From Methylobacterium sp. SyP6R (GTDB lineage Bacteria > Pseudomonadota > Alphaproteobacteria > Rhizobiales > Beijerinckiaceae): a DNA stretch of 64,000 nucleotides. A program made the position numbers and the translations under genes. The DNA lies in assembly GCF_019216885.1 (NCBI RefSeq), contig NZ_JAAQRC020000001.1, positions 5,273,501 through 5,337,500 on the forward strand, in the 5' to 3' direction. The notes below the pieces were generated by a model, which worked only from the letters and a program-made list of their open reading frames with translations, did not search any database and was not told where the DNA came from. Below are positions 49,451-60,346 of the stretch, piece after piece; within the stretch, counting starts at the first letter, position 1; each line of letters begins with the position of its first letter.

Positions 49451-50866
49451 ATGGACGACGAGACGTTTCGAGCCTGGGCGCGCCGGGCCGCCGACTGGTC
49501 GGTGGATTACCTGTCAGGCGTCGGCGAGCGGCCGGTGCGGGCGCAGGTGGCGCCGGGCGAGATCTTTCGCCAGCTGCCCGAGGCCCCGCCTAAGGCGGGC
49601 GAGCCGATGGAGGCGATCTTTTCCGACCTCGACCGGGTGGTGATGCCGGGCATGACCCATTGGCAGCATCCGCGCTTCTTCGCCTATTTCCCGGCCAATG
49701 CCAGCCCGCCCTCCCTGGTGGCGGAGTTCGTCACCGCGGCGCTCGCCGCGCAATGCATGCTCTGGCAGACCTCGCCGGCGGCGACCGAGCTCGAGACCCG
49801 GGTGATGGACTGGCTGCGCCAGATGATCGGGCTGCCCCAGGACTTTTCCGGCGTGATCCAGGATTCGGCCTCGGGCGCGACGCTCGCCGCCCTCCTCACC
49901 GCCCGGGAGCGGGCGCTGGACTTCACCGGCAACGCGAACGGCCTCGCCGGCGGGCCGGTGTTGCGGGTCTACGCCTCCGAGCAGGTGCATTCCTCGGTCG
50001 ACAAGGCGGTGCGCATCGCCGGCATCGGCGACGCCAACCTGGTGCGGATCCCGGTCTCGGGGGCCCTCCACGGCATGGACCCGGACGCCCTCGACGCGGC
50101 GATCCGAGCCGACCGCGAGGCGGGGCTGAGGCCTGCCGCCATCGTCGCGTGTCTCGGCGGCACCGGCATCGGCGCCTGCGATCCGATCGAGGCGGTCGCC
50201 GCGGTGGCGCGCCGGCATGGGGTGTTTCTCCACGTCGATGCCGCCTGGGCCGGCAGCGCGATGATCTGCCCCGAATTCCGCGACCTGATGCGCGGCGCGG
50301 AGCTTGCCGACAGTCTGGTGTTCAACCCGCACAAGTGGCTGTTCACCCATTTCGACTGCTCGGCCCATTTCGTGCGCGACCCGAAGGCGCTCACCGACAC
50401 GCTGGGCCTTCGCCCCTCCTATCTGCGCACGCTCGGCCGCGACGGCGTCGTCGATTACAACGAGTGGTCGATTCCCCTCGGGCGCCGCTTCCGGGCGCTG
50501 AAGCTGTGGTTCGTGATCCGCTCCTACGGCGTCGAGGCGTTGCAGGACATGATCCGCGCCCATGTCGCCTGGGCGCGGGAGCTGGCGGAGATCATCGACG
50601 CCGATCCCGACTTCGAGCTGACCTCGGCCCCGGTCCTGTCGCTGTTCAGCTTCCGCTACGCGCCCGCCGGTGTCCTCGACCTCGACGCGCTGAACGCCCG
50701 CCTTCTGGAGCGCATCAACGACGACGGCCGCACCTATCTGACCCAGACCCGCCACGCGAACCGCTTCGTCATCCGCTTCCAGGTCGGCCAGACCACGACG
50801 ACGCGGGCGGACGTGATGATGGCGTGGGACGCGGTGCGGGAGATCGCGCGCAGCGGATGCACGTAA
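49451..50866 (+). CDS. PLP-dependent group II decarboxylase (aromatic-amino-acid type)
   Basis: A 471-residue pyridoxal-phosphate enzyme related to aromatic L-amino-acid decarboxylases. Conserved features: HWQHPRFFAYFPANAS near residue 75, VIQDSASGATLAALL near 136, the PLP-binding HVDAAWAGSA near 262 and the Schiff-base Lys295 in NPHKW. The start MDDETFRAWARR at 49451 is chosen; earlier in-frame starts give a poorly conserved tail. The gene ends two bases before the AT-rich island begins, so it marks the left junction. Confidence 0.92.
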   Translation: MDDETFRAWARRAADWSVDYLSGVGERPVRAQVAPGEIFRQLPEAPPKAGEPMEAIFSDLDRVVMPGMTHWQHPRFFAYFPANASPPSLVAEFVTAALAAQCMLWQTSPAATELETRVMDWLRQMIGLPQDFSGVIQDSASGATLAALLTARERALDFTGNANGLAGGPVLRVYASEQVHSSVDKAVRIAGIGDANLVRIPVSGALHGMDPDALDAAIRADREAGLRPAAIVACLGGTGIGACDPIEAVAAVARRHGVFLHVDAAWAGSAMICPEFRDLMRGAELADSLVFNPHKWLFTHFDCSAHFVRDPKALTDTLGLRPSYLRTLGRDGVVDYNEWSIPLGRRFRALKLWFVIRSYGVEALQDMIRAHVAWARELAEIIDADPDFELTSAPVLSLFSFRYAPAGVLDLDALNARLLERINDDGRTYLTQTRHANRFVIRFQVGQTTTTRADVMMAWDAVREIARSGCT

Positions 50867-50955
50867 GCCTTCCAACTTATAACAATTACGTCGGTTCAAA
50901 ATAAATTTCATATTTTTGACTTATTGTTTTTGATTAAATTCATATGCAACAAAAT

Positions 50956-51993
50956 TCAAACGCTGGTTCGGTCATCCAGGCGATATAATTTACATTTGTT
51001 TAAAGGCATTCGCTGCATGTGGACGACGCGATCAGGAACAGTTGCAAGCAGTGGGCACTCCGATTTCAATATGCTGTGTAATGTTGCAGCCGTAGCGAAA
51101 GGTTTTCCGCCTGCACTAATTATAATCGAGTGAATATTGGTCCGGTTTATACGCGAAATAGCTAGATCAATCAGCTTAATCGTTTCATTTAAATTCCATC
51201 TTTTTGTTTTTAATATGCCATCTGGGTCAATATCTAAATTTCTACACAAGCTCTGTAGAGACGCAAAGCTTTTACTATCTCTCACGGCCTCGTCTTCGAT
51301 AATTAAATCGATCCGGGCTGGCTCAAGTTCTCTAATTTTAGCTATTGTTCGCTGAAAATCTAGACCGCATAAAAGTATAATATGTCTTGGTAAATTTGGT
51401 TTATACTTTCCTTCGGAATATGGAACGGCCGAAAAGCAAAAATCGATATCATTAATATCATGATGTAAGGGCCCTGCAGCATAGACATCATGAAGCCAAA
51501 GACCATTATATTGGTAATCAGCTTGCTGATATAAGATATCAATACCAGAGACAGCCCTTGTGCGAACCAACATTCCAACTATTGATGAGAGGGCTATTTT
51601 ACTTATTGCCGTCGCGTCGATTAAAACTCTTCTTCTTTTTCCAGAAAAATTACGAAGATTTTTGTCGAAAAAATGCCGCATCTGCTGGAATTCTTTGGCA
51701 AAAATCATTGTATTTTCTGAATCGGACCAGCGGAAATATTCTTGATTAATTCGATCTGAGTAGACGACCAAGCCATTTTGATTTATATTGTAGCCTAGAT
51801 TAACGCCACATTTGTAAAAATTTAACTGATTGATCCATTCTAACGTATATTCAGAATGAATATATCTAGGTGACAATATACCACAAGCGTAAATGTTATC
51901 ATATGGCGATATATTTTCGATTGTATCTTCATATAAATCGTACCAGCCGATTCTATGTGATGAAAATGCATCTCCACCGTTTATCTTCATCAT
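50956..51993 (-). CDS. Rossmann-like protein of a three-gene ATPase system, unknown function
   Basis: A 345-residue cytoplasmic protein with no signal peptide, third gene of the operon. Alternating strands and helices are visible: RRRVLIDATAISKIALSSIV, GIDILYQQADYQYNG, HIILLCGLDFQRTIAKIREL, RIDLIIEDEAV and then NIHSIIISAGGKPFATAATL, followed by PLLATVPDRVV. The layout (VLIDAT-x... then ILYQQADY ... then GGKPF) recalls Rossmannoid proteins I associate with prokaryotic immune loci, but I could not confirm a named family. It starts with ATGATG; the first ATG overlaps the ATPase stop (ATGA), so translation is coupled. Codons are AT-rich, unlike neighbours. Confidence 0.8.
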   Translation of the reverse strand: MMKINGGDAFSSHRIGWYDLYEDTIENISPYDNIYACGILSPRYIHSEYTLEWINQLNFYKCGVNLGYNINQNGLVVYSDRINQEYFRWSDSENTMIFAKEFQQMRHFFDKNLRNFSGKRRRVLIDATAISKIALSSIVGMLVRTRAVSGIDILYQQADYQYNGLWLHDVYAAGPLHHDINDIDFCFSAVPYSEGKYKPNLPRHIILLCGLDFQRTIAKIRELEPARIDLIIEDEAVRDSKSFASLQSLCRNLDIDPDGILKTKRWNLNETIKLIDLAISRINRTNIHSIIISAGGKPFATAATLHSILKSECPLLATVPDRVVHMQRMPLNKCKLYRLDDRTSV

Positions 51994-54053
51994 ATCAAAT
52001 CCTGCTGGTTCAGATCGGAAGCGCTATTCGCAGATTTTTCTTCCAAGATTTTCAAAATTTTTTCTGCCCAATGGCGGCTATCAAATTGCACACTTTCCGT
52101 TAGAATGATAAAATCAGATAAAGGTACCTGCACACTTCTTTGTGGCCCTCGTGAAGAAAAATTATATATCGGAGCTATTAACCTATGAAGCCTGAATGTT
52201 ACTTCGTTTGTCTCCGATATATTTCCGTGAGATCTAAATTCTCCTTCAATGACACGAATAGATCCTGTATTTTGCCCCCTTGCCAAAGCTTTTCGGATCA
52301 AAGTTATAGTGTTTTCTTCGTCTAGCAACATGTACTCGGAGAAGTCCAGTCGAATCGCCCCGCGTTCCGGCTGAGATAATGCTCGAAATTTATCTTTTGA
52401 CTGCAGCATCCTATTTAACTCAGCTACACCATTTACAATGCGCGCCAATGTACGCCCAATTCGGTCAGTCGCATTGTCCACTTGCTCAAGATAAGTGCGG
52501 CTTGCTTCGCGAAAGCATTTTGTTTGCTTATCGATTGGTATATGTCGTCCGTCTTCTAAATTAAAAAAAGGAATTAGCGACCTTTTCCGATCTCGATAAT
52601 CTTCGGCAACAGAATCATACAAAACAGAAAGTATCCGGAGGAAGTCTCGTATGCAACCATCAGCTAAAAGTATCAACGCATTTTTTCCCGCATAGGGAGT
52701 TTGCCGACTTAACTCGTTAGCGGCGCAGACCAAGGCAGCAATATTTTTTTGTCGAAAATAGTTATCTACACCAGCTGGATTACGTATAGCCAGAAATTGC
52801 TCAAATCGGCCCTTGTCTTCGGCAAATAGTATATTAAAAATATACGTATGATATAAATAATTCATTTTGTTGATTTTATGGGTGTTCCAGCGAGCTCCGC
52901 GCAACCCACTCGATTTATCCGCCAATTTTTGTGCAACATATTCTACGTTTTTCAGTAGCCGCTCTCGAAATGCATTGCTACTCGTATTGTCTACAAGGTC
53001 TGAAAACAGCATACTGATATTTAGATTGCCTAGAAGTTTTGCATAATTAGATCTATGAGGTTCATGGTCATCTGTATCTCTACTGTAAGTTCTTATATCA
53101 TATATTTTTTGACACAGCCGCCAAAAGTTCCTTGGATTATCTCTGTAACTTAAATCAACCAATTCAACATCATGGTGTGTGAGGGGCGAAGAGCTGTCTG
53201 GCGACAGAGATGGATCGTAACCTCCTGTGACGTATGATAAATTCCAAGTTATAGGAGATGTATTTATCTCAATAATGCTGTTAAGTAGACCCTGTTCATT
53301 CTTGCCAAATCTATGCACATCATCAAGAGAGATTTTTATATGCTTGGAAATACCAGTCCCACGAAGTATTGCGCTATCACTAATCATTTGACAGAAATCG
53401 CGATAAAATTTAACGGGGTCAACATATTCCAATAACCGCAGTATACGCTCTGGACGCAATCTGATACTGTTAATTCTCATACTCATACAAATTTTTGAAA
53501 GAATAGACCCGCATTCCAAAATCGTTTTTGCAGACGTTAAGTCGACTTCTTGCGAAAAATGCTGACGCAATAAAAATAAAAATCCTGATACAAAGCCGTT
53601 TTCGTCATATGCATTGTACTGCAAGATGCCAGCAATTCGACATTCGTCTATCGAGTTCAAAACCTTTATAAGGCATGTGAATATTAAATATGATTTGAAC
53701 CATTGACTATGTATACTAATATCACTTGATAATAATAATTTTTGTTCGCTATATATACCATCGAGTTGAAGCGGCAAAAATTCTGTAAACTCAGCGATTA
53801 TATTTATATACACACCTAAGCAATTTTCAGGCCTATCATCCGGATTCAGAAACCAATGATTATGATTGATGCTTGCTAAAGGATCTAGGCAGTTTAAAAG
53901 CGCGGTCTTGCCTGTGCCGCGAAGTCCGCTTATAAGGCATGCTTTAGGCGATGCAACTTTTGATATTTCGGGCGGTATCCATATCCTGTGTGATATCTCA
54001 GTTTCCCATCTGTGCGCTGTAAATGGATTGCTCCTAGGTGGTGTCTTGCTCAT
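51990..54053 (-). CDS. Large P-loop ATPase (AAA+/STAND-like), central gene of the system
   Basis: A 687-residue ATPase. Walker A is GLRGTGKTALL at residues 43-50; the Walker B region is HIKISLDDVHRFG near residue 262, with two aspartates as in ORC/CDC6-like or STAND ATPases, and ITWNLSYVTGGYD may be the sensor-1 strand. The remaining 400 residues are helix-rich without repeats that I recognise, as in sensor or winged-helix parts of STAND proteins. The ATG at 54053 overlaps the phosphoesterase stop (ATGA); an ATG at 54074 is also open. The usual role of such a protein is a nucleotide-driven switch that senses a trigger and controls an effector. Confidence 0.85.
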   Translation of the reverse strand: MSKTPPRSNPFTAHRWETEISHRIWIPPEISKVASPKACLISGLRGTGKTALLNCLDPLASINHNHWFLNPDDRPENCLGVYINIIAEFTEFLPLQLDGIYSEQKLLLSSDISIHSQWFKSYLIFTCLIKVLNSIDECRIAGILQYNAYDENGFVSGFLFLLRQHFSQEVDLTSAKTILECGSILSKICMSMRINSIRLRPERILRLLEYVDPVKFYRDFCQMISDSAILRGTGISKHIKISLDDVHRFGKNEQGLLNSIIEINTSPITWNLSYVTGGYDPSLSPDSSSPLTHHDVELVDLSYRDNPRNFWRLCQKIYDIRTYSRDTDDHEPHRSNYAKLLGNLNISMLFSDLVDNTSSNAFRERLLKNVEYVAQKLADKSSGLRGARWNTHKINKMNYLYHTYIFNILFAEDKGRFEQFLAIRNPAGVDNYFRQKNIAALVCAANELSRQTPYAGKNALILLADGCIRDFLRILSVLYDSVAEDYRDRKRSLIPFFNLEDGRHIPIDKQTKCFREASRTYLEQVDNATDRIGRTLARIVNGVAELNRMLQSKDKFRALSQPERGAIRLDFSEYMLLDEENTITLIRKALARGQNTGSIRVIEGEFRSHGNISETNEVTFRLHRLIAPIYNFSSRGPQRSVQVPLSDFIILTESVQFDSRHWAEKILKILEEKSANSASDLNQQDLI

Positions 54054-55372
54054 ATCGCGCTGCCTATGTTCCACCGTTTAGACGCTCGATTTCGATTGGC
54101 GATTTGCACTAATCCGAGCCATTCAAGCTCAAGTAATGCCCGTTCGATAGCATCTTCCGGTTCAAGGGGATATTTTTTGCATACATCGCCAAAATGCAAC
54201 TGCGAATTACTGGCAAATGTATCATGAAACATCCTTCGAGCAAGTTCCGTTATAGCGGCAATTCTGTGTGGCCCCTGCCTGAAGGGGATTCTTCTAGGCT
54301 CCAAGCGAGTCATTTTTCCTATTGAGTCTTGTCTTACGGCGTTTATCACAAGACCTAACGGACTACCGTCTTCTGAAAAGTGAATTTCTAATACATTATA
54401 TCCATTGATAAACTCAGGCGCCGAAATTGATATGACGCAACTGGTTGGATTGCTTTGACTAAATACGACTTCAATAGGGTCTTGATGAATATGACCATGG
54501 AGATAAATAATTGGATCATCCTTGCTTGCTAAAAAAGATCTAAGTTCCCCTGAATTCATTAATTCACTAAAAAGGGCAATACGAGGAACAGTCTGAGGTA
54601 GTAGATTATGGTGACCAACAACTACATGTACCGAAGAGGGGTTTTCATTAGAGTTGCGAATAATCAAATTATCAAGTTTGTGAAGAATGCTCGAGTCGAT
54701 TAGTGGTGCATCGAGCCGCTCTGTCAAATCCATAAAACTATTTACTGCGTCGTCGATTTGTTTATCAGACGTCGATCTTAGAATATCTTTCAGTCTATTT
54801 GAAAGCTCGGCTCGCATGGAGTCTGGGAACGATAAAAATTCTCCGCAGCCGATGCAGGTATTGATCCCATATATGAATGCCGACAACTCTCCTTGTTTTG
54901 CAGTGATTACCGAGATATTTTCGGCGGAGTTATGAGCATAGCCATATTTACCAATCTTTTCTATATAATATTGAAACTTTCCATATCTATCTCCGGAGCT
55001 TGACGGACATTTCGTTCTATCAACGTCATGATTTCCCGGCACGAAAATAGATCTCGCATGACCGTGTTTTCCAAGTAAAATTTTAATAACATTTCTATCG
55101 AGATAGTCTATGCACTCCTCCATTGATTGCATCTGAGATAATAGATCGGGATTGCCAGTTGTATAATCTCCCATAAAAGCAATAGCATCAAAATACTGCT
55201 CTTCATACTGTGAGAAAGATTCGGATATTTTCTGGATTCGCAGGCCTATCGGCGCAATTTCATCAGAAATATCAAACGGGTCTCTTTTCAAATCAGCGTC
55301 TGGACGATTGGAAATAGCTTCAGGAAAATGAATATCTCCGATTTGTAGAATACGAAGCGGCCGATTGCGCAA
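54050..55372 (-). CDS. Calcineurin-like metallophosphoesterase, first gene of the system
   Basis: A 440-residue metallophosphoesterase with all metal-binding motifs: GDIH (Asp13, His15), GD at residues 68-69, GNHD at 113-116, GHH near 245 and GHIH near 291. The last 75 residues (ITELARRMFHDTFASNSQLH, then LEPEDAIERALLELEWLGLV) look like a winged-helix or helical adaptor. Start: a TTG at 55372 follows AGGAG by seven bases; a GTG at 55387 overlaps that site and is less likely. It could be a nuclease (Mre11/SbcD-like) or a cyclic-nucleotide phosphodiesterase; the sequence alone does not decide. Confidence 0.9.
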   Translation of the reverse strand: MRNRPLRILQIGDIHFPEAISNRPDADLKRDPFDISDEIAPIGLRIQKISESFSQYEEQYFDAIAFMGDYTTGNPDLLSQMQSMEECIDYLDRNVIKILLGKHGHARSIFVPGNHDVDRTKCPSSSGDRYGKFQYYIEKIGKYGYAHNSAENISVITAKQGELSAFIYGINTCIGCGEFLSFPDSMRAELSNRLKDILRSTSDKQIDDAVNSFMDLTERLDAPLIDSSILHKLDNLIIRNSNENPSSVHVVVGHHNLLPQTVPRIALFSELMNSGELRSFLASKDDPIIYLHGHIHQDPIEVVFSQSNPTSCVISISAPEFINGYNVLEIHFSEDGSPLGLVINAVRQDSIGKMTRLEPRRIPFRQGPHRIAAITELARRMFHDTFASNSQLHFGDVCKKYPLEPEDAIERALLELEWLGLVQIANRNRASKRWNIGSAI

Positions 55373-55387
55373 TTTTTTTCTCCTCAC

Positions 55388-55840
55388 CGCCTGAATGTCA
55401 CAACAAATTTATATCATTCACTCCTTTAAATGTTATCTTCCAGAAATTTGGAAAAGGCAATAGGCAGCCAACATGCATCTTCGACTGGAAATCTGATCGC
55501 GTCACAATTTGTATTCGTTCAACTATGAATAAAAACAAAAACTAATTCACTAGTTTCTTGCTAAATATATCTTATACTAAATAAATATAATTATACAAAT
55601 ACAAAATCACACACTTTTTTGAATAGGCGAATACACCATTCGTTTTTGACCGTTGGGGAGAAAATGTACAAAATTTTAATCATAATCTGTAAAAAATCGT
55701 ATGTAAGATCTAGCAGAATACCTGCATCAATGCAATCGGACTTCGAAAGTCCAAACATTATTGTGAAATAGCCGATCGATTAACATGACTGTGTGAAAAA
55801 ATATCTCGTAAGGCGCCGAAATACGTTCGTACAGCAATGC
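55388..55840. other. AT-rich region upstream of the island operon
   Basis: About 450 bases without a gene, very AT-rich (55551-55620). It must hold the operon promoter on the minus strand. AAAGGAG and a two-codon ATG-ATA-TAA lie near 55430-55410. A small palindrome GGACTTCGAAAGTCC lies at 55739-55753. No att-like repeat was found. Confidence 0.55.
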
Positions 55841-55899
55841 AGCGAATCTCGTCTATGGTCTCAATACTGGCTGGCGGTTCTTGTCAAGCGCAAAGATGC

Positions 55900-56100
55900 T
55901 CACCCTTGGTCCGGCGGGCAGCGCAACGCCGCCTCCACCTCCTCGCGGGTCTTGCCCCGCACGGCGTAGCCCATCGCCTCGAAGCGCTCGATCAGGGCCG
56001 GGCTGTCCTCGGTGGCGCAGGCGGCCCAGGCGGCCAGCCGCTCGTTCATGGTGTGGAGTTCGGCGGACGGGTTACGGTGAGGAACGGTCGTGTCGCTCAT
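55900..56100 (-). CDS. Small acidic protein downstream of the aldo/keto reductase
   Basis: A 66-residue protein (MSDTTVPHRNPSAELHTMNE). The sequence ERLAAWAACATEDSPALIER and FEAMGYAVRGKTREEVEAAL is helical and soluble. It has no recognised family. It follows the aldo/keto reductase gene by about 90 bases on the same strand, so it may end the lar-type operon, and it sits at the right border of the AT-rich island. Confidence 0.6.
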   Translation of the reverse strand: MSDTTVPHRNPSAELHTMNERLAAWAACATEDSPALIERFEAMGYAVRGKTREEVEAALRCPPDQG

Positions 56101-57334: not shown

Positions 57335-58012
57335 TCATCGGGAGGCCTCCGCGAGCCGGTGTGCCGCGTGGAGCAGGCGCATCGCCGCGCAGGCCGCGCC
57401 GTAGCCGTTGTCGATGTTGACGACCGCGATGCCGGGGGCGCAGCTCGCCAGCACCGCGTCGAGGGCGGCGCGCCCGCCTTGCGCCACGCCGTAGCCGACC
57501 GAGGTCGGCACCGCGATCACCGCCCCGGCGACGAGGCCGCCGAGCACGCTCGGCAGGGCCGCATCCATGCCGGCGGCGCAGATGACGACCGGATGGGCCC
57601 GGATCTCCTCGATCCGCCGGGTCAGCCGCCACAAGCCGGCGACGCCGACATCGGCGATCAGCGTGGTGGCATGGCCCTGATAGGCCAGCGTCCGCTCGGC
57701 CTCGCGGGCCACCGGCACGTCCGAGGTGCCGGCCGCCACGATGGCGATGCGGGAAGGGCCCACGACGGGCCTCGCCGCGCCGAAGAAGGCGGTGCGCGAG
57801 ACCGGGCAGTAATCGAGCCGGTCGCGGTAGGTCAGCGCCACATGGCGCTCCGGGTCGAGGCGGGTGACGAGAAAGCGCGCGCCGCGCTCGTCGGCGGCGG
57901 CCAGGATGGCGTCGATCTGGGCCGGCGACTTGCCGGCGGCGAAGACCGCCTCGTCGAGGCCGATCCGTTCGTTGCGGGCGAAGTCGAGGGTGAATTCGTC
58001 GCTCAAGTTCAC
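57335..58012 (-). CDS. larB: Nickel pincer cofactor biosynthesis protein LarB
   Basis: A 225-residue enzyme related to PurE, which carboxylates nicotinic acid adenine dinucleotide and hydrolyses the phosphoanhydride, the first step to the nickel-pincer nucleotide cofactor. Key regions: IAIVAAGTSDVPVAREAERT, VICAAGMDAALPSVLGGLVA and PTSVGYGVAQGGRAALDAVL. The GTG start overlaps the larE stop (GTGA). Confidence 0.93.
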   Translation of the reverse strand: MNLSDEFTLDFARNERIGLDEAVFAAGKSPAQIDAILAAADERGARFLVTRLDPERHVALTYRDRLDYCPVSRTAFFGAARPVVGPSRIAIVAAGTSDVPVAREAERTLAYQGHATTLIADVGVAGLWRLTRRIEEIRAHPVVICAAGMDAALPSVLGGLVAGAVIAVPTSVGYGVAQGGRAALDAVLASCAPGIAVVNIDNGYGAACAAMRLLHAAHRLAEASR

Positions 58013-58821
58013 CGCGCCGGCCCTCCGACCAGAAAGGCGCTGCCGGTGCGGTAGGGTGCGAAGGAGATCGGCGCCGCGGCGAGCCGAGCCGGGGCGCGGG
58101 CGGCGATGCGGCGGCCGAGATCGCTTCGTGCCGGCTCGGTCAGGCCGGCGAGGCTCTGCGCGTCGAGTTCCACCACGATGCCCGCGGCGCGCACCCGGCA
58201 GCGCACGGCGCTCTTCGCCCCCGTGACCGTCAGGTCTTCGCCCACCAGCCGCTCGACGGCGTGGATGAAGGCCAGGGTCTCGGGTTCGATGCGGATGCCG
58301 GTCTCGACCCGGCTCGACAGGCAGGGGGCGGCGGGCAGTTCCGCCACCGCGCCGAGGCCCAGGTCGCGGGCGAGCGCCCGCACCATCGCCTTGCTGAACC
58401 CGGCTTCGACGAAGGGGTGGCGCACCCCGTGCTCCCGGGCGGCGTCGAGGCCGGGGCGGTACTCGCCGAGATCGTCGAGATTGGCGCCGGATACCATCTG
58501 GCGGTCGGTCACCTGCCGGATCGCCCCGTAGAGGTTGGTCTTGCAGAAGAAGCAGCGGTTGACCGGATTCTCGCGATAGGCCGGGTCGGCGAATTCGCCG
58601 GCCTCGATCACCCGCAAGGCCCAGCCCTCGCGGGCGGCCTCCGCCCGCACCCGCGCGGTCGCCTCGCCCGGCACGGCGGGGGAGACGGCGTGGACCATCA
58701 GGGGCGGCTCAGGGCTGGTGCGATGCGCGATCGTCGCCAGCGTCAGGCTGTCGACCCCGCCGCTCACCGCGACGGCGATGGGCCCGAGGCCGGACAGGAC
58801 GGTTTCGAGGGGCGGGCTCAT
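58009..58821 (-). CDS. larE: Nickel pincer cofactor sulfur transferase LarE
   Basis: A 270-residue PP-loop ATPase. AVSGGVDSLTLATIA near residue 16 is the ATP pyrophosphatase loop; NRCFFCKTNLYG and LPAAPCLSSRVETGIRI carry cysteines, the latter equivalent to the sacrificial cysteine of single-cysteine LarE proteins. It adds two sulfurs to the pyridinium. The ATG overlaps the larC stop (ATGA). Confidence 0.93.
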   Translation of the reverse strand: MSPPLETVLSGLGPIAVAVSGGVDSLTLATIAHRTSPEPPLMVHAVSPAVPGEATARVRAEAAREGWALRVIEAGEFADPAYRENPVNRCFFCKTNLYGAIRQVTDRQMVSGANLDDLGEYRPGLDAAREHGVRHPFVEAGFSKAMVRALARDLGLGAVAELPAAPCLSSRVETGIRIEPETLAFIHAVERLVGEDLTVTGAKSAVRCRVRAAGIVVELDAQSLAGLTEPARSDLGRRIAARAPARLAAAPISFAPYRTGSAFLVGGPAR

Positions 58822-60122
58822 CGCTCGTCCTCCGGCAGCGACAAGGCCCGACGCTCGGCCTCGCGGCGCAGGGACTGGCGGGCGGCGTGGCCCTCCGTCG
58901 CCAAGGCATCGTCGGATTCCGCCTTGGCGGTGCGCCCGCCCGGCCGCGCGACGCTCTTCACCCTGACCGTCTTGCCCCCAACCTCGACGGTGTCGAGGCG
59001 CCGCCTGAGCGCGGTGCCCGAGACGGTGTGATGGCGTAGCCCGATCGTCGTGGTCTCGCGAAAGCAGGCCTCGATCGCCTCCTCGATCGCGTCGGCCCGG
59101 ACGAGCGCCCGGACATGGGTCATCATCCGGCCCTTCTTGCCGAAGACCGGCATCTGCACGACGTCGAAGATTTTGTCGTGCGCCCGCAGCCGGTCGAGTC
59201 CCATGGCGAGGTCTTCCGCCGACTGGTCGTCGACCTCGAACTCGATGATGCCGAGCTCCCGGTGACCGGGAGAACCCGTCTCGCCCTGTTCCTCGAAGGC
59301 GAGCACCCGCAGCACGTTGCTCAGGCCCGGCAGCACCTTGGTGCCGAAGCCGAGCCCGCTGCGCAGGAGCCGGCGCGGGCCGCTCGTCCTGGGCTGGCCT
59401 TCGCAGAGATGGCGCAGGATCGCCGCCCCCGTCGGGGTCACGCGCTCGCCCGGCACGCCGTCGTCGAGGGTGAGGAAGCCTTCGAGCAGGAGCGCGGTGG
59501 CGGGCGCCGGGACCGGCAGGGGCCCGTGCTGGGTCCGCACCCGGCCGGAGCCGAGCGGCAGCGCCGAGACCGACCAGCGGGTGGCGCCGATCGCGTCGAT
59601 CAGGTGCGCCGCCGCCACGATGTCGGCGATCGAATCCCAGGCCCCGACCTCGTGGAACGCCACGTCCTCGACCGGGATGCCATGCACCCGCGCCTCGGCC
59701 TCGGCCAGGTGCCCGAAGATCGCGAGAGCGTGGGCGAGTGATGCCGGAGACAGCCCGCTCGCCTCCAGGTCGCGGCGGATCGCGGACCAGTGCCGGTGCG
59801 CGGGGTGGCCGCCGTGATGGTGATGGCCGTGATGGTCGTCGGGGTGATGAGGGTGATCGTGGTGATGGTCGCCGTGACGATGGCCGTGATCGTCCGCGTC
59901 CGCCGGCCGGTCGGGCGCCTCGCCCTCGGGGACGGTGACCGCGAAGCGCCGGCCCTGGAGCACGCCGTCGCCATGGGCGAGGAGCGCGCAAGTCGTGCGG
60001 CCGCGGCTTGCCCGCGCCACGCTCTCGCGCACCCCCGCCTCGTGCTCCGGAAAGGCGTCGAGGAGCGCCGCCGCGAACATGTCGCCGGCCACTCCGCCGA
60101 CGGCGTCGAGATGAATCTGCAT
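58818..60122 (-). CDS. larC: Nickel insertion protein LarC with a histidine-rich insert
   Basis: A 434-residue protein that puts nickel into the pincer cofactor using CTP. It starts MQIHLDAVGGVAGDMFAAAL, the LarC hallmark. The conserved middle and end (VTPTGAAILRHL, GFGTKVLPGLSNVLRV, VQMPVFGKKGRMMTHVRALV) are complete in one frame, whereas some bacteria make LarC by ribosomal frameshifting between two frames. Residues about 75-110 are extremely His/Asp-rich (DDHGHRHGDHHHDHPHHPDD and more) and probably store Ni. It leads the larC-larE-larB-AKR operon. Confidence 0.93.
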   Translation of the reverse strand: MQIHLDAVGGVAGDMFAAALLDAFPEHEAGVRESVARASRGRTTCALLAHGDGVLQGRRFAVTVPEGEAPDRPADADDHGHRHGDHHHDHPHHPDDHHGHHHHGGHPAHRHWSAIRRDLEASGLSPASLAHALAIFGHLAEAEARVHGIPVEDVAFHEVGAWDSIADIVAAAHLIDAIGATRWSVSALPLGSGRVRTQHGPLPVPAPATALLLEGFLTLDDGVPGERVTPTGAAILRHLCEGQPRTSGPRRLLRSGLGFGTKVLPGLSNVLRVLAFEEQGETGSPGHRELGIIEFEVDDQSAEDLAMGLDRLRAHDKIFDVVQMPVFGKKGRMMTHVRALVRADAIEEAIEACFRETTTIGLRHHTVSGTALRRRLDTVEVGGKTVRVKSVARPGGRTAKAESDDALATEGHAARQSLRREAERRALSLPEDER

Positions 60123-60346
60123 CGCGTCCTTCGTCCCGGCATCGACCGGATGCCGGTCGGGGGCACATCGGCCCGCAGGGGCCGACGGCAAGCGCCCCGG
60201 ACAGACGGTCGCAGCGCGGACGACGCGGATTTTTCTCGCGGAATCTCCTCACGAGACCGGTTTTTCCAGCCTGCCCGGTGGATCACCCGCCGCCCGCCGG
60301 GGCATAAGCCCGCTCAACACCGCAAATACAGGAGAGGACGCGACCC

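Follow-up and report, generated by a model that had tools for sequence, protein, structure and literature searches.

Cyclic oligonucleotide alarms are ordinarily read by CARF domains, and the closest described counterparts of the locus considered here are operons in which a CARF6-type gene and an ORC-CDC6-like ATPase gene (PF24389) accompany a first gene for a PRTase-CE (PF24390) or HD-CE (PF24391) protein. The '-CE' family names are reportedly owed to a 2020 survey in the Journal of Bacteriology, and the CARF classification is said to stem from a 2020 article in Nucleic Acids Research. We analysed a 64,000-nucleotide stretch of Methylobacterium sp. SyP6R (GCF_019216885.1, contig NZ_JAAQRC020000001.1; hereafter the window, to whose positions the locus coordinates refer) in which three minus-strand genes encode a calcineurin-like metallophosphoesterase, an ORC-CDC6-like P-loop ATPase and a CARF6-type protein. 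This trio shares with the PRTase-CE and HD-CE operons the ATPase family, the CARF6-type gene and the effector-first order, but differs from them in its metallophosphoesterase first gene, in the lack of a linked methyltransferase and in an ATPase that falls into a clade of its own. Since the ATPase, CARF6, PRTase-CE and HD-CE are all catalogued families, the trio belongs to an existing predicted kind of system; from sequence comparison we consider it probably to be an acquired three-gene conditional anti-invader module, whose phosphoesterase effector would be switched on by the ATPase and the CARF protein.

Other described systems resemble single components of the trio. For the DefensePredictor systems DS-8 and DS-9, the portions of the report used here describe metallophosphatase catalytic residues that are essential for phage defence (PMC13092281); unlike the trio, DS-8 is a single protein that adds a NACHT P-loop NTPase, the DS-9 partner is a HAD phosphatase, and the word CARF is absent from the main text of that paper. 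The trio contains no HAD match and reaches 21.8 bits with the NCBIfam model DS9_1 (cut-off 420), and the match to DS41_1 of DS-41 (25.7 bits against 370) covers residues 15-63 only, so that neither system is indicated. A PRTase is proposed as the effector beside DprA in a phage-borne system, according to the part of PMC9122126 drawn upon here. BREX (BrxC/PglZ/PglX) has no CARF protein among the components named in the consulted part of PMC12839542, and none of the three proteins gives a PADLOC match to BREX (PglZ, BrxX/PglX, BrxC) at E ≤ 1. In Foldseek the ATPase model is matched best by RdrA rings of RADAR (RdrA/RdrB; E 8.1e-4, TM-score <0.2), a resemblance that is structural alone and thus does not imply membership; the trio, in contrast to RADAR, contains a CARF protein and a phosphoesterase as putative effector, with no deaminase match. 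The earlier note on this DNA, made from its letters alone, knew of no named system with this composition, and this holds for PADLOC, NCBIfam and Pfam. No description of a phosphoesterase-ATPase-CARF trio was found in the literature searched, outside which most subscription papers lie; it is likely that its composition has been predicted in the literature before, in which case the additions made here are the conservation of the unit, the counts of first-gene swaps, the match that implies fusion and the pattern of linked methyltransferases.

Results

Scanning with the phosphoesterase alignment, one genome per species, located 60 loci, at 58 of which an ATPase profile also matches. A third-gene profile derived from close relatives of the window protein matches at 43 of the 60, and at 54 once it is broadened to take in genes from those loci. 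Five of the remaining six (L010, L022, L043, L056, L060) stop at contig ends, and in the sixth, from Rhizobium mongolense, the ATPase frame is broken, which marks a decayed copy (L019:9264-10451). Gene order and strand are identical in 54/54 complete loci, and the gaps, counted from longest-ORF starts, are ≤25 bp (mostly overlaps) at the two junctions in 52/54 and 54/54 cases, respectively. The 60 loci include many Mesorhizobium near-copies, 35 being left at <90% identity, and their record titles span Alphaproteobacteria, Desulfobacterales, Bacteroidales, Planctomycetota, Verrucomicrobia, Bacillota, Frankiales, Anaerolineae, Nealsonbacteria and a Thorarchaeota bin; most lineages outside Alphaproteobacteria are represented by metagenome bins, and two loci, those of Frankiales (L010) and Thorarchaeota (L043), end before the third gene. 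Protein distances are correlated between the genes (r 0.946, 0.929 and 0.955 for 36 sequences, values as high being reached in 0/2000 permutations), with shared species history contributing, and all three genes are present in 3/3 viral contigs and 7/7 plasmid loci opened. The earlier note had proposed, as support for a defence role, homologues kept as an unbroken trio in unrelated genomes and near restriction-modification, CBASS or toxin genes, and the unbroken trio is what the 54 loci in distant lineages provide; recurrence on this scale means that the arrangement is not due to chance, and the trio is a true unit.

The first gene (54050..55372, minus strand; 440 aa) is, as had been recognised from the sequence, a complete calcineurin-like metallophosphoesterase: it matches PF00149 at 45 bits against a cut-off of 21.5, and its metal-binding set is complete, with D13, H15, D69, N114, H115, H255, H294 and H296 identical in 50/50 sequences, the window's included. 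Six of these residues lie in the minus-strand motifs GDIH (D13 and H15; 55328..55339), GNHD (N114 and H115; 55025..55036) and GHIH (H294 and H296; 54485..54496). The TTG start at 55372 has AGGAG upstream at a seven-base spacing, and the end at 55372 given in the earlier note fits this TTG rather than the alternative GTG at 55387. A profile search of the PDB gave Lmo2642 (2xmo, 5.7e-6) as the sole match at E ≤ 0.001, and no SbcD or Mre11 chain. Because the alternatives found in the same slot are HD-type and phosphoribosyltransferase-type (below) and the nearest solved profile relative is Lmo2642, we favour, by analogy, nucleotides or nucleotide signals over DNA as the substrate of this predicted effector. 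A different role is suggested by the weak match to NCBIfam CpdA (17.4 bits, cut-off 225, E 0.0025), by the occurrence of cyclic nucleotide phosphodiesterases among calcineurin-like enzymes and by the ring nucleases that serve as brakes in CARF pathways: the phosphoesterase might be a ring-nuclease-like off-switch that destroys the CARF ligand, with the ATPase as the real effector. We regard this as most improbable, given that sister operons hold phosphoribosyltransferase-type or DruA proteins in that position, which by family are not ring nucleases, and that no toxic domain is recognised in the window ATPase by Pfam, PADLOC or NCBIfam.

The second gene (51990..54053, minus strand) encodes 687 aa when read from its ATG; a GTG at 54074 opens the longest ORF (694 aa). 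The P-loop ATPase read there from the sequence can now be placed more sharply, as an ORC-CDC6-like protein matching PF24389 at 172.5 bits (cut-off 27) over residues 16-648 of the 694-aa ORF, and it is predicted to act as switch and scaffold. In its Walker A motif GLRGTGKT (G43-T50; 53904..53927, minus strand), G43, G46, G48, K49 and T50 are identical in 50/50 sequences; in the Walker B motif ISLDD (D244/D245; 53319..53333, minus strand), D244 is identical in 50/50 and D245 in 42/50, with E in the rest. A midpoint-rooted tree of 54 ATPase sequences places the window type in one clade (34 leaves, support 0.998) and the HD type in another (6 leaves, support 1.0); the PRTase type does not form a clade.

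The product of the third gene (50956..51993, minus strand; 345 aa) has no Pfam family match at E ≤ 1, and was previously described as Rossmann-like. The gene itself stands, whilst its identity is corrected to a tandem CARF (SAVED-like) protein of the PADLOC CARF6 group, which it matches at 9.9e-7 with models that carry no curated cut-off; the commonest CARF6 model matches 32/38 family members (best 4.7e-220), and a CARF/SAVED fold is predicted. A CARF G-x-K loop (51103..51111, minus strand) contains G295 and K297, both identical in 50/50 sequences and invariant in the 38-sequence alignment. Pfam recognises no effector domain in this protein, and on the predicted fold it is probably a sensor of a nucleotide ligand.

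The assignment of roles is informed by a search with the ATPase family, which was over cut-off in 14/398 phylum genomes and 20/397 order genomes (overlapping samples) and from which 21 regions were fetched, 14 with a full-length ATPase. A CARF6-type gene lies directly downstream of the ATPase in 14/14 of these loci. The upstream gene varies, being a window-type phosphoesterase in 2 (near-copies), PRTase-CE in 7, HD-CE in 3, a different phosphoesterase in 1 and DruA in 1; at 8 plasmid loci it is PRTase-CE in 5 and HD-CE in 3 (profiles built from verified members only, 1.5e-10 or better), again with a CARF6-type gene in 8/8. Pfam confirmed the first gene as PRTase or HD at 7/10 genome loci, profiles made from those 7 recover the other 3 at 3.5e-38 or better, and the swap results were rechecked with profiles built solely from Pfam- or PADLOC-verified members. 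The window trio has the same layout, its effector gene directly upstream of the ATPase and its CARF6-type gene directly downstream. Furthermore, the PADLOC model CARF_STK_AAA (1187 residues) is matched at positions 3-796 by the kinase-ATPase of locus L191 and at 893-1182 by that locus's separate CARF protein, implying natural fusions that join ATPase and CARF. The ATPase of L188, the locus with the second phosphoesterase type, groups with that of L191 beside the window-type clade, so this phosphoesterase need not be an independent recruitment.

On these comparisons the ATPase and the CARF protein make up the core, and the first gene behaves like an effector that can be exchanged. That the place of the phosphoesterase is taken by other predicted effectors points to the phosphoesterase as effector and to the ATPase as switch. 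The earlier proposal that the ATPase senses a trigger and the phosphoesterase acts as effector is thus strengthened for the effector and switch; the CARF/SAVED-type identity of the third protein indicates that ligand sensing is probably located there.

Among the sister operons, L160, L161, L163 and L192 form one PRTase-CE/ATPase/CARF6 clade, of which the first three also contain a GSGGS-motif protein of 636-647 aa (SIS-like by eye), the L163 copy matching Pfam HAD hydrolase families. L198 and L207 (Klebsiella plasmid pKPHS2) combine PRTase-CE, ATPase, CARF6-type and methylase genes, the first three annotated as hypothetical proteins, and 129 Klebsiella plasmids were found among 152 records matched by relatives of the pKPHS2-type ATPase.

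Possible sources of the CARF ligand were sought in 43 carrier genomes, comprising the own genome and 42 others, each belonging to one of the 60 loci; the Mesorhizobium near-copies are among the 18 loci not covered, and a few of the 42 are incomplete. The Cas10 models Csm1 (TIGR02578) and Cmr2 (TIGR02577) are over cut-off in 0/43, with no match in the own genome; Csm1 gives weak sub-cut-off matches in 2/43, and among 14 controls Csm1 is over cut-off in 3 and Cmr2 in 1. PF22335, over cut-off in 9/43 (best 36.6 bits), is not specific, as it is also over cut-off in the control E. coli. CD-NTase is over cut-off in 4/43 carriers (any match in 7/43), the own genome among the 4, where the one SMODS match lies about 2.87 Mb from the trio. 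With type III CRISPR CARF effectors and CBASS SAVED effectors the trio shares the predicted CARF/SAVED fold of its third protein, and it differs from them in the lack of a recognised effector domain on that protein, of Cas10 over cut-off in the carriers and of a CD-NTase in the operon. A type III CRISPR origin was rejected on the Csm1 and Cmr2 counts, and CBASS was rejected because the trio has no CD-NTase Pfam match and just 4/43 carriers have the enzyme over cut-off. It follows that no recognised maker of a CARF ligand travels with the trio, and that the signal may come from an unfamiliar enzyme or from infection itself, or the ligand may be other than a cyclic oligonucleotide. Elsewhere on the own contig (C1:2454505-2454969; L120:5244-6979), a CD-NTase (SMODS, 57 bits) in an AT-rich patch with an adjoining membrane-like ORF (by eye) is a likely small CBASS.

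DNA methyltransferases accompany several relatives of the trio. One adjoins 12/18 PRTase/HD loci (the profiles used were partly built from these loci, and 6/12 are also annotated as DNA methylases), and another stands beside the second phosphoesterase type. In the window-type loci, a Dam-class gene directly follows the CARF gene in 6/60 (L003, L004, L005, L007, L008, L057), lies one gene further in L026, and directly follows CARF in one of the three viral contigs (L096); all Dam-linked phosphoesterase loci belong to one subclade, whose member L016 has no Dam-class gene found. MethyltransfD12 was likewise the top family (5) when 126 ORFs from the flanks of 35 loci were scanned with Pfam, followed by Thy1 (4) and by resolvase, transposase, integrase and HNH families (2 each). 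These associations, and the resemblance of the ATPase model to DNA-bound ORC, MuB, TnsC and BREX BrxC, are compatible with restriction-type or BREX-like DNA targeting, in which the ATPase would read DNA, self would be marked by methyltransferases, and the invader's DNA would be attacked by the phosphoesterase or HD enzyme as a DNA nuclease or phosphodiesterase. This alternative, which equals the explanation preferred here in all but the substrate, we consider rather unlikely: the window trio has no linked methyltransferase, the sole D12-type match of the own genome being about 0.68 Mb away, Dam-class genes were found beside a single phosphoesterase subclade, the PDB search returned no SbcD/Mre11 chain, and the slot also accepts PRTase-CE, a fold that is not a nuclease family. 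A strong N6_N4 methylase match, possibly CcrM, is present elsewhere on the own contig. Under the preferred explanation, in which nucleotides are destroyed, the methyltransferase-linked forms suggest that some relatives also read DNA methylation state.

In the own genome (7.5 Mb in 6 contigs) the trio is on the main contig. The ATGA overlaps by which the three genes had been said to be joined were read directly at 54050..54053 (genes 1 and 2) and 51990..51993 (genes 2 and 3), on the minus strand. The AT-rich, foreign-looking island described earlier is equally real, gene GC being 0.376, 0.394 and 0.410 against about 0.65-0.74 in the adjoining kilobases and ~70% for the chromosome. A leader 5' of gene 1 (55373..55910, minus strand; GC 0.357) is the presumed promoter region; the segment as a whole contains 21 promoter-like sites where shuffles give 16.8 (sd 4.2), a difference that is not informative. 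In two relatives (G015 and G024) the alignment covers both flanks: it breaks off after 50848 and picks up at 55911 in G015 and at 55912 in G024, with different DNA of native GC in between. In the other 3 of the 5 relatives whose larger regions were compared, the right flank alone aligned. Positions 50849..55910, replaced by other DNA in those two relatives, thus look like an acquired or replaced segment. The ATPase was found in 1/61 relatives searched, this being the own genome, and in 12/385 genomes of a class-level sample, 11 of the 12 matches being partial, which rules it out as a core gene of the genus. This site, flanked by a decarboxylase-like and an aldo/keto-reductase-like gene, is a small variable spot whose cargo differs in each of three related genomes; by eye, the cargo comprises cupin/LysR-like ORFs in one relative and a chemoreceptor-like ORF in another (L116:2311-5897; L117:2577-4661). 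At window positions 57335-60252 lies what by eye resembles a cluster of LarB/LarC/LarE-like genes for the Ni-pincer cofactor, including a histidine-rich stretch.

Relatives of the trio also lie on mobile elements. The phosphoesterase is matched in 35 plasmid records, 30 of them typed conjugative, and the GC of the trio is below that of its flanks in 33/35 loci. Neighbours at one locus include AbiE together with a restriction endonuclease and a TrlF-like ATPase, those at another 7-cyano-7-deazaguanine synthase, a restriction endonuclease and an anti-phage dGTPase, and those at a third an integrase and VapC. The plasmid records, the viral contigs and the toxin-antitoxin neighbours would also suit a module for plasmid maintenance or some other mobile-element addiction, or else a metabolic operon, neither of them serving defence. 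This we consider very unlikely, in view of the trio's position on the main contig of its own genome, of the methyltransferase-linked forms and of the lack of a consistent metabolic neighbour in the flanks scanned, where thyX was commonest (4/126 ORFs from 35 loci). ThyX, a flavin-dependent thymidylate synthase, is next to or near phosphoesterase-type loci at L011:12426-13397, L013:13170-14108, L058:12416-13390, L003:9903-10826 and L112:12414-13400, and is also listed at L189, L200 and L203, having been seen with phosphoesterase-type and HD-CE-type operons. A prophage gene was rejected as an identity, since neither the ATPase nor the phosphoesterase has a match in 50,697 phage records, even though the trio is present on three viral contigs.

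Discussion

From the conservation of the unit, the predicted folds, the complete catalytic motifs, the swapping of the first gene and the kinase-ATPase-CARF single-chain profile, all of which are observed, we infer the module, and with it a defence role, an order of events, a ligand, a substrate and perhaps cell death. At rest, a complex of ATPase and CARF protein would keep the phosphoesterase inactive. On infection a trigger, DNA or a phage protein, would reach the ATPase, and a nucleotide-type ligand would reach the CARF protein; an ATP-dependent rearrangement, by assembly or conformational switching, would then render the phosphoesterase active. The active enzyme would hydrolyse phosphodiester bonds and destroy nucleotides or nucleotide-containing molecules, so stopping the infected cell or the invader.

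Several results weigh against this reading. Cas10 was absent from all carriers under the cut-offs used and CD-NTase was present in few of them; the window ATPase has no PADLOC match at E ≤ 1 and the PADLOC matches to the phosphoesterase are weak (best 0.0011); and the methyltransferases beside relatives also fit a restriction-type DNA nuclease. Neighbours are non-defence at several loci (the window, L113, L124 and many flank families), and the defence neighbours were noted locus by locus, without a background rate. The conflict or anti-phage system first suggested for this locus has accordingly gained an unbroken trio, a mobile AT-rich setting and some defence neighbours (restriction, anti-phage dGTPase and toxin-antitoxin genes at some loci, ordinary genes at others), and the predicted defence role continues to be drawn from sequence.

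A more speculative extension, which we advance as doubtful, is CARF-controlled immunity that does without Cas10 or CD-NTase: the ATPase and CARF protein would form a sensing complex for an infection-made nucleotide and, in methyltransferase-linked relatives, for methylation state, coupled to exchangeable nucleotide-destroying effectors, and the window trio would be a deep phosphoesterase branch with no methyltransferase of its own, perhaps using host methylation as its self mark. A two-CARF protein wedded to an ATPase, in genomes mostly devoid of known alarm synthases, makes what CRISPR-independent CARF6 proteins sense a testable question. The exchange of phosphoesterase, HD, PRTase and DruA genes on one core provides matched operons for separating sensing from killing, and the methyltransferase-linked forms may be a bridge between restriction-type self marking and nucleotide signalling.

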